64,000 nt of DNA, taken from the NCBI RefSeq assembly GCF_000177215.2, contig NZ_CM001368.1:3851625-3915624 (forward strand). Direction: 5' to 3'. Below are positions 4,846 to 52,287 of this stretch, piece after piece. Position numbers and translations under genes: made by a program. The stretch's first letter is position 1. Each line of letters opens with the position of its first letter. Under the pieces are notes generated by a model. It searched no databases. It was not told the origin of the DNA and saw nothing but the letters and a program-made list of their open reading frames with translations. Source of the DNA: Solidesulfovibrio carbinoliphilus subsp. oakridgensis. GTDB taxonomy: Bacteria > Desulfobacterota > Desulfovibrionia > Desulfovibrionales > Desulfovibrionaceae.

Positions 4846-4892
4846 TTCAGGGGGTCCGGGGGGATGATCCCCCCCGGCCGCCGGAGGCATCT
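4846..4892 (-). repeat. 3'-end modular hairpin, copy 1 (after gatA)
   Basis: Read on the minus strand it starts ATGCCTCCGGCGGCC, then GGGGGGATCATCCCCCC, then GGACCCCC. It begins within about 10 bases of the gatA stop, in the same sense as gatA, and lies between gatA and mnmA. Confidence 0.8.
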
Positions 4893-4898
4893 TCATTC

Positions 4899-6365
4899 CT
4901 AGATTCCACTCGGCTGCGGCAGCTGCGGCAGCGCGTTCCCCAGCACCTTGGCGGTGCGCAGGATGGCGGCTTCGTCGAAGGCCGGGCCGAAGAGCTGCAT
5001 GCCGATGGGGAGCCCGGAGTCCTTGCCGAGGCCGACGGGCATGGACAGGCCGGGCAGGCCGGCGAGGTTCAGGGAGATGGTGAAGATGTCGCTCAGGTAC
5101 ATCTGGAGCGGATCGCCGGACATCTGGCCGATGGGGAAGGCGGCAAAGGGCGAGGTCGGGCCGCAGATGACGTCGCATTTGGCGAAGGCGTCCAGGAAGT
5201 CCTGGCGGATCAGCCGGCGGACTTGCGCGGCCTTGCGGTAGTAGGCGTCGTAGTAGCCGGCCGAGAGGACGTAGGTGCCGATGACGATGCGGCGGCGGAC
5301 TTCCGGGCCAAAGCCCTTGGACCGGGACAGCTCGTAGAGCTCTTCCAGGGTGACGGCTTCGGGGGCGCGGTAGCCGTAGCGCACGCCGTCGAACCGGGCC
5401 AGGTTGGAGGAGGCTTCGGCCATGGCCACGATGTAGTAGGTGGCGACGGCGTAGGGCGTGTGGGGCAGGGAGACCGGCACGACGGTGGCGCCAAGGGCCT
5501 TGGCCGCGTCCACGGCCTCCTGGCAGCCTGCCCGGACCTCGTCGTCCACGCCCTCGCCCCAGTACTCGTCCGGCAAGCCAATGGTCAGGCCGCGCAGATC
5601 ACCCGCGCCGGCGAGAAGGGCCTCGAAGTCCGGGGCCGGGCGCGGGGCCGAGGTGGAATCCCTGGGATCGTGGCCGGAAATGACGGTCAGCATGGCGGCG
5701 GCGTCGTCGGCGGTGCGGGTAAGCGGTCCGATCTGGTCCAGGCTCGATCCGTAGGCGACCAGACCGTAGCGCGACACCCGGCCGTAGGTGGGCTTGATGC
5801 CGACGGTGCCGCAAAAGGCGGCCGGCTGGCGGATGGAGCCGCCGGTGTCGGTGCCGAGCGCGGCGAAACACTGGCCGGCGGACACGGCCGCAGCCGAGCC
5901 GCCGCTCGATCCGCCCGGGACCCGGCTGGTGTCCCAGGGGTTGGCGGTCACGGCGTAGGCGGAATTCTCGGTGGAGGAGCCCATGGCGAACTCGTCCATG
6001 TTGGCCTTGCCAAGAAGGATGGCGCCGGCGGCCTTCAACTTCTCCACGCAGGTGGCGTCGTAGAAGGGCACGAAATTCTCGAGGATCTTGGAGGCGCAGG
6101 TGGTCGGGGCGTCGGCCACGCAGATGGCGTCCTTTATGAGAACCGGCACGCCCCACAGGCGTTTGGCCGGATCCGGACCGGCGGCGTCCATGGCTCGGGC
6201 CTTTTCCAGGGCCGACTCGGCCCCAAGGTGCAGGATGGCCCGAAGCTTCGGCTCGGTGGCTTCGATGCGGGCCAGACAGGCGGCCACCGCCTCTTCGGCC
6301 TTTATTTCCGTGGCGGCCAGCGTGTCGCGGACCTCGGTCAGGGACAGACGAACGATCTCGGACAT
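4899..6365 (-). CDS. gatA: Asp-tRNA(Asn)/Glu-tRNA(Gln) amidotransferase subunit A
   Basis: This 488-residue amidase-signature subunit of GatCAB releases ammonia from glutamine to amidate mischarged Glu-tRNA(Gln) or Asp-tRNA(Asn). The Ser-cis-Ser-Lys triad is visible: Lys78 in VPVLIKDAI, Ser153 in [11 protein letters not shown], and Ser177 in [12 protein letters not shown]. Length is normal for GatA. It is preceded by gatC with a repeat-family hairpin between them; gatB is not in the window, so the trio is split. The start MSEIVRLSL is the usual short N-terminus. Confidence 0.95.
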
Positions 6366-6386
6366 GACGAATCCCTTTCTGGCTCA

Positions 6387-6459
6387 TCCCCCTTTCCCCA
6401 AAGCGAGGGGGTCCGGGGGAAATGATTCCCCCCGGCGGGGCTCGGGGCGGAGCCCCGTT
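6387..6459 (-). repeat. 3'-end modular hairpin, copy 2 (between gatC and gatA)
   Basis: On the minus strand the gatC stop is followed by a GGGGCTC/GAGCCCC hairpin, then the palindrome GGGGGGAATCATTTCCCCC and GGACCCCC. The 5' box is reduced to GCCGG. It lies inside an operon, so it cannot be an obligatory full terminator. Confidence 0.7.
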
Positions 6460-6464
6460 CATTC

Positions 6465-6749
6465 TTAAACAATTTTCGGAACGATAAAGAACTGGCCGTC
6501 CGTGGCCGGGGCGTTGGCCAGGATCCGGTCGCGGGCGCAGGCCTTGGTGGCGACGTCGGCGCGCAGCGGGGTCTCGTGGAGCACCGGGCTGTAGAGGGGC
6601 TCGACGCCGTCGGTATCGACCGCGCCAAGGGTTTCCATGTAGGCCAGGATGCCGTCCATCTGGCCGGCAAAGGCTTCGAGGCTGTCGTCGTCCAGGCGCA
6701 GCCGGGCCAGCTTGGCCACCTTGGCCACTTCATCGGGGCGTATCTTCAT
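6465..6749 (-). CDS. gatC: Asp-tRNA(Asn)/Glu-tRNA(Gln) amidotransferase subunit C
   Basis: This 94-residue small subunit wraps around and stabilises GatA in the GatCAB complex. It begins MKIRPDEVAKVAKLARL, the typical GatC opening, continues with a helical pair, and has the conserved PLYSP...LRAD turn. Start codon at 6749. It is 99 bases upstream of gatA in the same direction and 23 bases downstream of the lipoprotein gene. Confidence 0.92.
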   Translation of the reverse strand: MKIRPDEVAKVAKLARLRLDDDSLEAFAGQMDGILAYMETLGAVDTDGVEPLYSPVLHETPLRADVATKACARDRILANAPATDGQFFIVPKIV

Positions 6750-6772
6750 GGGAAGGTCTTCCTTGGGATGTC

Positions 6773-51348: not shown

Positions 51349-51450
51349 CCGTACCGGAAAACCGCGTCACCCAGGCCGTGCGGCGGAAAACGACACGAAA
51401 CCGGCCGGCGGCGCGCCCCCGCGCCCTGTCCCGGCCTCCGGGAGGACGCT

Positions 51451-52062
51451 TTGAACACTGCTCACGCCAACGACGAGGCCGCGGCCAAGGCCGAGGCCCT
51501 GCACCAATCCGCTTTGGAAGCCCTGGAACGCAAGGAGTTCGAGGCCGCCCGGCAAGGCTTCACCCAGGCCCTGGCCGCCTTCGCCGCCCTGGACGACGCC
51601 GTGGGCCAGGCCATGACCCAGCACAACCTGGGCCTGGCCAGCCAGGAATCGGGCGACCTGCCCGGGGCCCGGGAGTGGCTGGAAAAGTCCCTGGCCATCA
51701 GCGAAAAGGAAGGCCTGGAGGGCGGCATCACCGTCACCTGCCACCAGCTCGGCGTGGTGGCCCAGCTGGCCGGCGACTACGCCACGGCCGTCACCTGGTA
51801 CGAGCGGGCCCTGGACCTCGAGACCAAGCACGACAACACGCCGGGCGAGGCCAAGACCTGCCACCAGATGGGCCTTTGCGCCAATCTGCAAGGCGACCTC
51901 GAAGCCGCCAAGGTCTGGTACGCCCGGGCCATCGCCCTTTTCGAGGAGCTCGGCGATACGGCCAACGCCGGCAAGACGAAAAAACTCCTCGACTACCTGA
52001 CCGACTTCGAGCGCCAAGGCAGCCACCAAGGCCACGACGGGCCGTGCGGCCGGGCCCAGTAG
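51451..52062 (+). CDS. Tetratricopeptide-repeat protein
   Basis: A 203-residue soluble protein made almost wholly of about four 40-residue TPRs (ALFEAARQGFTQALAAF-like, AMTQHNLGLASQESGDLPGAR, TCHQLGVVAQLAGDYATA and TCHQMGLCANLQGDLEAAK). The repeats contain paired Cys-His residues at equivalent positions. The start is a TTG at 51451 with a strong GGAGGA ribosome site. Partners are unknown; it may be read together with the ferredoxin gene 102 bases upstream. Confidence 0.78.
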   Translation: MNTAHANDEAAAKAEALHQSALEALERKEFEAARQGFTQALAAFAALDDAVGQAMTQHNLGLASQESGDLPGAREWLEKSLAISEKEGLEGGITVTCHQLGVVAQLAGDYATAVTWYERALDLETKHDNTPGEAKTCHQMGLCANLQGDLEAAKVWYARAIALFEELGDTANAGKTKKLLDYLTDFERQGSHQGHDGPCGRAQ

Positions 52063-52088
52063 GGGCGGAGGAGAAGAGACGAGGAAAA

Positions 52089-52135
52089 GGCCTCCGGCGG
52101 CCGGGGGGATCATCCCCCCCGGACCCCCTGAACGG
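52089..52135 (+). repeat. 3'-end modular hairpin, copy 8 (after TPR gene)
   Basis: GGCCTCCGGCGGCC, then GGGGGGATCATCCCCCC, then GGACCCCC, in the sense of the TPR gene and 26 bases beyond its stop. Confidence 0.8.
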
Positions 52136-52194
52136 CGGAGCAGGTATTTTCCTTTGGCGCAGCCTGCGTCATGGCGCGGGAGTGTGGCGAAGAG

Positions 52195-52223
52195 AGCCCG
52201 GGAGCGGTTGCTTCCGGGCTTTT
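52195..52223 (+). terminator. Intrinsic terminator downstream of the TPR gene
   Basis: AGCCCGGGAGC-GGTT-GCTTCCGGGCT with one G-T wobble, followed by TTT. It comes after the repeat-family hairpin, so the two occur in series. Confidence 0.65.
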
Positions 52224-52241
52224 GGGTTATACGGGCGAGGG

Positions 52242-52287
52242 GACCGGGGAATCATTCCCCCGGCGGGGCAGGGGCGGAGCCGGCCTG
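52242..52287 (-). repeat. 3'-end modular hairpin, copy 9 (after corA), degenerate
   Basis: On the minus strand GGCTCCGCCCCTGCC, then CGCCGGGGGAATGATTCCCC and GGTCC. Only the palindrome and its flanks are retained. Confidence 0.6.

Follow-up and report, generated by a model that had tools for sequence, protein, structure and literature searches.

The 64,000-nucleotide stretch analyzed here (the window) comes from Solidesulfovibrio carbinoliphilus subsp. oakridgensis (contig NZ_CM001368.1, positions 3,851,625 to 3,915,624) and carries, directly behind genes, copies of a short hairpin element. The original prediction had taken a simple stem-loop as the unit of this family; the stem stands, while a tail that mirrors one stem arm and matches the loop had been missed. 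This pyrimidine tail follows the 5' arm of the stem in parallel order and at its end complements the apical loop. Both properties are demonstrated at the level of the letters. On balance, we favor the view that the family is a dispersed extragenic repeat similar to repetitive extragenic palindromes (REPs), that its building block is a putative hairpin-type (H-type) pseudoknot giving the mRNA a protective 3' end, and that it spreads in trans.

A unit consists, in this order, of a purine-rich leader, the head GCCTCCGGCGGCC ending in CC, a stem, a short loop of usually 3 nt, GG, A, a pyrimidine tail and often GGGG. The 5' arm is mostly purine and G-rich, the 3' arm pyrimidine. The 252 distinct modules fall into 58 arm types, a few of them noise, with GGGGGGGA, GGGAGGGGG, GGGGC, AGGGC, AGGAGAGGC and AAAGGGC as the commonest arms; longer arms with an apical T-run exist as well. 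Units are found singly, strung together in tandem with GCC or ACC between them, or as inverted pairs that enclose other palindromes. In the 4.22-Mb genome the exact head occurs 363 times (179 forward and 184 reverse), compared to 5 times (3 and 2) for the same letters read backwards. Within the window, this constant 13-mer gave 54 matches with up to two mismatches, against a mean of 21.6 and a largest value of 33 in 100 shuffles.

The tail reads as the complement of the 5' arm in parallel 5'-3' order and not as its reverse complement, with C opposite G and T or A opposite A. For example, the arm AGGAGGGG is followed by A-CCTCCCC and the arm AGGAGAGG by A-CCTCTCC. In another genus AGGGGGGAAACTTTTTG is followed by ACCCCCTTTCAAAAAC, with C kept as C and one G passed over. 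Since the tail could also be a direct repeat of the 3' arm, both readings were scored on 77 distinct and informative pairs of arm and tail. The parallel one fitted better in 25 and the direct repeat in 2, with 50 ties (15, 1 and 8 when counted by arm type), and the direct repeat is therefore disfavored. The parallel mean was 6.10 of 7 positions, while the best of 2000 shuffles reached 5.61. This comparison replaced an earlier variant with more and shorter direct-repeat windows, in which both readings beat the shuffles. Among short modules with a stem of the form [AG]G(2-6)C, 117 passed the stem filter; in 80 of these the tail does not begin with A, and they were excluded as mostly other than this element, while in 24 of the remaining 37 the C-run equaled the number of G in the arm.

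The end of the tail matches the loop. From 170 distinct elements with a T-N-A loop, 27 were dropped before counting and 143 could be aligned by a GGG at usable distance downstream. In 109 of these the base four positions before the GGG is the Watson-Crick partner of N (C-G 61, G-C 40, A-T 7, T-A 1). A set of 5000 shuffles gave a mean of 54.8 and a maximum of 75, or a maximum of 77 when shuffled within arm class; as the elements are related by descent and spread, such shuffles overstate independence. The flanking tail positions 3, 5 and 6 match the loop base in 14, 45 and 48 of the 143. Array modules, the 24 short ones counted above, follow the same rule in 22 cases (C-G 15, T-A 7), where 5000 shuffles reached at most 20. 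Furthermore, in 15 long stems with a T-run apex the longest complementarity between tail and apex averages 6.1 nt, compared to 3.5 nt (maximum 4.5) in 300 shuffles of the tails. Identical loop-tail changes are found in different arm types: C-G, G-C and A-T in both the GGGGGGGA and GGGAGGGG types, and C-G and T-A in the AGGGC and GGGGC array types. This recurrence weighs against shared descent as the whole cause.

We also used a search pattern that masks the tail base, which returned 84 places; these come from 10 genomes among the 59 searched in the family. The prediction was recorded before a first batch of 20 was opened (10 of the 11 non-C places, and 10 places where N is C). It held in 17 of these 20, in 61 of the remaining 64 and hence in 78 of 84. 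Since C prevails in the loops and G in the tails, the comparison that matters is how often A stands in the tail: in 7 of 9 places with loop T, but in 1 of 73 with loop C (Fisher p 7e-8). Neither of the two places with N = G fitted, and one of the six misses (L407) reads as coding sequence. In a genome of another genus (G029), several TGA loops were seen by eye, uncounted, with TCA or CCA in the tail.

Placement was examined in 864 kb, made up of the window and 40 stretches of 20 kb at 100-kb steps (the step near the window omitted), in which our own simple codon-usage gene caller found 742 genes; loci beyond this sample were picked for containing the head or resembling a window stretch. The 82 exact heads lie in convergent gaps (33), in tandem gaps in sense (25) or antisense (12), in divergent gaps (2), in sense within the 3' end of an open reading frame (ORF; 5), antisense inside ORFs (2) or at stretch edges (3). 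Among gaps of at least 30 nt, those with a head number 28 of 77 where genes converge, 34 of 308 where they run in tandem and 1 of 89 where they diverge. For 59 sense copies the distance from stop codon to head is 1-82 nt, with a median of 18. The tandem ratio of 25:12 gives p 0.047, and 30:12 gives p 0.008 if the ends within ORFs are included. Thus, the preference for 3' positions is strong, and that for the sense orientation is genuine though modest. Antisense, divergent and in-ORF-antisense copies were inspected singly and revealed no tRNA and no sense ORF at the caller threshold of 12 (best 7.5, 55 aa).

The two bases preceding the head are AT in 58, AG in 13, AA in 5 and others in 6 of the 82 exact copies. 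The purine-rich leader often ends in AT (e.g., window 25250-25266), which yields a Shine-Dalgarno-like tract followed by ATG CCT CCG GCG GCC; such a leader is also seen at 9 of the 12 tandem-antisense copies. A conserved short ORF was rejected by eye, since AT precedes only 58 of 82 heads and the frame has no common stop across stem types.

Stem pairing was evaluated in 128 distinct elements with at most two non-Watson-Crick pairs, more broken stems being dropped; in this set 33 of 993 pairs are non-Watson-Crick and 100 stems are perfect, in line with the earlier statement that the arms vary yet remain paired. All 25 tandem-sense copies have an intact stem, compared to 9 of the 12 that are tandem-antisense (Fisher p 0.028). 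Sense bias, tight distance to the stop codon, near-absence from divergent gaps and integrity of sense stems would favor the RNA side. Orthologous sites had been proposed as a check for missing copies, and behind the gene at 28405 a sense head is found in 4 of 13 genomes (this one, G069, G066 and, with 2 mismatches, G060). The other 9 have no sense head there, and two of them carry an antisense head 100-170 nt further on. Judged from these sites, copies turn over between species.

All eleven copies listed in the original prediction are present, with starts within a few bases of those given, and the family is larger than reported. The eleven all lie 3' of a gene and in its sense (genes from the same caller), so that the claimed placement holds; the claimed sense orientation holds in the window and becomes a bias genome-wide, with 12 antisense tandem copies in the 864-kb sample. 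The copy said to sit inside an operon indeed lies between gatC (PF02686) and gatA (PF01425). The features of the window are as follows.

4842..4888, reverse strand: element with head GCCTCCGGCGGCC, G-rich stem, loop TCA and tail ACCCCCTGA, 3' of gatA (stop at 4899); middle loop base C with tail G, by eye.
6396..6456, reverse strand: two-module element without a GCCTCC head, inside gatC-gatA; the main module breaks the loop-tail rule (loop C, tail C).
14671..14711, reverse strand: AAAGGGC-type element with a 4-base loop, 3' of an ABC-transporter gene; loop rule not scorable.
25267..25318, forward strand: GGGAGGGGG-type element with tail ACCCACCCGAAAGGGG, behind an aldehyde dehydrogenase gene; C in the loop, G in the tail.
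28103..28151, forward strand: GGGGGGCG-type element at the left end of a composite; loop C with tail G.
28201..28271, forward strand: central palindrome of the composite, 23-bp arms, apex GCTGCAAAGCCAGC, an apex shared by 20 distinct sequences.
28346..28391, reverse strand: element closing the composite on the right, behind a nitronate-monooxygenase-like gene; degenerate loop, not scorable.
42675..42721, forward strand: GGGAGGGGG-type element behind a 4Fe-4S (nuoI-like) gene; C in the loop, G in the tail.
42723..42774, forward strand: second long palindrome in the gap behind the nuoI-like gene, apex GGCTGCAAAGCC, related to the apex of the central palindrome.
42891..42972, reverse strand: three stem modules in an array, linked by GCC, behind an FAD-oxidase gene; loop C with tail G in all three.
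50706..50744, forward strand: element between two genes in tandem, with the variant head GCCTTCGGCGACC and an AAAGGGC stem; C in the loop, G in the tail, and in the head loop T with A.
52090..52135, forward strand: element behind a TPR-protein gene; C in the loop, G in the tail.
52236..52268, reverse strand: element with loop TGA and tail CCCCTCG, 3' of a corA-like gene; loop G with tail C.

By eye, the loop-tail rule holds in 8 of 9 scorable window copies; 6396-6456 misses, and the copies at 14671 and 28346 are unscorable. Plain folding of four window units returned the main stem every time (z -1.05 to -3.04), using a program that draws no pseudoknots.

The block 28042-28341 recurs whole or in part at no fewer than 20 other places in the genome with 75-94 percent identity. 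Exact 12-base heads stand in both orientations at 13 of 20 composite-like places of this genome, in one orientation at 4 and at none of the remaining 3. The heads of a composite flank a long palindrome with the constant apex GCAAAGCC. These palindromes appear as a second repeat family with the apex GC[CT]GCAAAGCC[AG]GC and long, strongly differing arms (window 28201-28271 and loci L131-L150, L002, L059 and L130). Their apex is represented by 20 distinct sequences, 19 of which have 16-24 bp of unbroken pairing with G-T allowed. A search of the window and 12 further loci against Rfam returned 0 families at the gathering threshold. The central palindrome (28195-28277) showed a below-threshold likeness to C4 antisense RNA (33.5 bits, gathering 45); this and similar near-threshold matches to miRNAs all fall short of their gathering scores and are taken as probable chance likeness to a long hairpin.

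The head itself varies. The variant GCCTTCGGCGACC with an AAAGGGC stem is also seen at G000:C1:708988 and 2316082. In this variant T and A take the place of the usual C and G of the head loop, and the head thereby looks like a mini-module built on the plan of the whole unit; two heads with T and G exist as well. Since all T-with-A heads carry the AAAGGGC stem, this covariation may be one event. Behind orthologues of the gene at 23792, loci L394, L395 and L398 have another head (GATGCGAGAGGGG... or similar) and a mirrored tail, which suggests that the head is exchangeable. A different hairpin is found behind orthologues of the gene at 51451 (L368, L369), with paired changes between two members of the genus (GTCCTCGAAATTC.. 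versus GTCCTCGGAATCC..).

Parallel order along the stem together with antiparallel complementarity to the loop is what an H-type pseudoknot with a connector running along stem 1 needs. The pairing of the loop of hairpin 1 with downstream sequence, which defines such a fold, is present here in the form of covariation only. Because the tail tracks the letters of the arm it appears to be more than a spacer and would fit a pyrimidine-motif triplex; compared to that motif, part of the GGGAGGGGG type has A, not T, opposite A. We propose that the tail climbs along the stem, probably forming pyrimidine-motif base triples, and then locks onto the loop. Transcribed just behind the stop codon, the knot would form a compact mRNA 3' end that may resist 3'-5' exonucleases after Rho-type or other termination. 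Copies would be multiplied by an enzyme acting in trans, other than the REP-associated tyrosine transposase (RAYT), and would be retained mainly behind genes, where they are harmless.

Several observations weigh against this model. Runs of C+.G-C triples are weak at neutral pH, which concerns any C-rich triplex. The required tail is missing from 93 of the 117 filtered short stems. The loop-tail rule is missed in 34 of 143, 2 of 24 and 6 of 84 cases, most of the 84 masked places have loop C and tail G, and the elements are related repeats, so that the counted cells are not independent. In the stems, G-T/T-G pairs number 13 and A-C pairs 10 over all elements, and 3 and 4 in this genome, which is no RNA wobble signature. 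With few wobble intermediates and no excess of G-T over A-C, the pairing fails to single out RNA, and for an RNA-only reading the wobble test counts against it. Moreover, 12 of 37 tandem copies are antisense, 9 of them with the stem kept. Finally, the tail often forms a second small hairpin (C-run, loop of about 5 bases, GGGG), and kissing loops instead of a pseudoknot could yield the loop signal there.

The last point leads to an alternative in which stem 1 touches a tail hairpin (C-run, loop Y-N'-R-R-Y, G-run) loop to loop. A GGG does stand behind the tail in 143 of 170 T-N-A elements, and the complementarity peaks at the second base of the putative second loop. However, modules joined by GCC or ACC in arrays have no second hairpin and show equal complementarity, which makes kissing less likely for them than for single units, and a second hairpin leaves the copying of the arm by the tail unexplained; we regard kissing hairpins as unlikely overall. 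A more serious competitor, to which we give a minority chance, is selfish DNA, where the knot would form in single-stranded DNA as substrate of a mobilizing enzyme, and sense and 3' bias would reflect selection against insertions into promoters and genes. Variable presence at orthologous sites, the antisense copies with their mostly kept stems, the missing G-T excess, the composites resembling bacterial interspersed mosaic elements (BIMEs) and the same head-and-tail design in other phyla all speak for it. Against it, no Y1 transposase was found in this genome, and the tandem sense bias, the more often intact sense stems and the tight spacing to stop codons also count the other way.

Ordinary or U-tract-less intrinsic transcription terminators would account for strong GC stems just behind stop codons and for the enrichment in convergent gaps, but we consider them improbable. 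As a rule no U-tract directly follows the stem, and the tail, mostly GGACC, is C-rich. Canonical terminators are about equally rare whether a gene end carries the element (7 of 61) or lacks it (44 of 369), in a strict scan that allowed no mismatch and thus missed imperfect stems. One unit lies inside gatC-gatA, and three degenerate orthologous copies (L088, L091, L095) adjoin a separate GC hairpin with a T-run. The canonical terminator was rejected as a general answer, in agreement with the earlier view that these are not plain terminators. Still less probable, in our judgment, is the absence of any function, with template-switch correction at replication keeping palindromes perfect so that paired change needs no selection. 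The mostly perfect stems with few wobble pairs and the long paired arms of the central palindrome would fit; yet such correction would create neither an arm-mirroring tail nor a loop-base match, nor a preference for convergent gaps.

Of 59 genomes of the family, 48 carry one exact head or more, the richest after this one being G025 with 245. A stricter pattern (head, 10-35 nt, GGACC) matched 13 of 247 genomes of a phylum sample, 3 of them inside the family; the 10 outside have 1 or 2 matches each, most without a visible stem by eye. In a wider collection 80 of at least 120 matching loci were inspected, many of them coding-like and without a stem, and hairpin-type copies among the matches listed come from Desulfoluna, Oscillospiraceae/Oscillibacter, Sphingomonadales, Roseococcus and metagenome-assembled genomes of Acidobacteriota and Aminicenantes. 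In viral contigs 82 stretches match, 8 with a stem of 5 bp or more behind the head. Only tentatively do we extend the model to a dispersed element class reaching from Desulfovibrionaceae to Desulfoluna, Oscillospiraceae, Sphingomonadales and candidate phyla, in which a triplex-pseudoknot, with the tail as parallel third strand of its own stem and locked by base pairing to the apical loop, would serve as a portable mRNA 3'-end lock spread by a mobilization system.

If the fold is real, some bacteria carry hundreds of knotted, possibly triple-helical elements per genome right behind their genes. The proposed function would bear on how 3' ends are defined and protected in GC-rich bacteria that rarely show U-tract terminators, and it would imply a REP-like element spreading without a RAYT in the genome. 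The simple code, from arm letter to tail letter and from loop base to lock base, makes structure and function testable by single-base swaps.

Searches by head string, variants and topic brought up no publication recognized as describing the element, most subscription papers lying outside the literature searched. The original prediction had named REP/BIME-like elements as one possibility, and this holds for the architecture of the family: hundreds of short extragenic palindromes per genome, as single units or as composites with inverted units. Extragenic location with more than 100 copies is REP-like, and here 7 of 82 heads lie inside called ORFs, 5 of these at the 3' end. As in BIMEs, palindromes alternate in orientation within composites (the 13 of 20 places above). 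REP superfamilies carry a conserved GTAG or CGTC tetranucleotide at one end, according to PMC3733652, and RAYT is a PF01797 transposase whose gene is flanked by inverted REPs, according to PMC2817692. No constant GTAG or CGTC tag was seen in the 82 exact copies. The REP-type transposase that the original prediction had advised looking for did not turn up either: neither RAYT (PF01797) nor Y1 transposase had a match in this genome, with controls matching in 5 of 14, and a REP with RAYT is thus unsupported here. PF01797 is present in 8 of 14 genomes of the genus, and the three in which heads were counted have 363 heads and no PF01797 match, 245 and 3, and 117 and 1. Unlike REPs and BIMEs, the family also uses several interchangeable stem types and a tail that mirrors the arm and complements the loop. 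Miniature inverted-repeat transposable elements are defined by terminal inverted repeats with a target-site duplication; the composites have inverted ends, and the intergenic flanks of orthologues looked too divergent to line up by eye.

With intrinsic terminators the element shares a GC-rich hairpin behind stop codons, but has a C-rich tail in place of a U-tract and separate terminators beside some copies. H-DNA is formed by polypurine/polypyrimidine mirror repeats, and 3' arm plus tail constitute such a repeat; here, in contrast, the mirror repeat comes together with an inverted repeat and a match between loop and tail, and the whole forms a dispersed family. Telomerase RNA, for example, contains an H-type pseudoknot with a loop-stem triplex, and triple helices also close 3' ends of the MALAT1 type. 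As a putative RNA triplex, the element would resemble H-type pseudoknots in a loop that pairs with a downstream strand, a connecting strand along the stem and placement at 3' ends. It differs from them in being bacterial with hundreds of dispersed copies, and in a C-rich connector that runs parallel to the G-rich arm.

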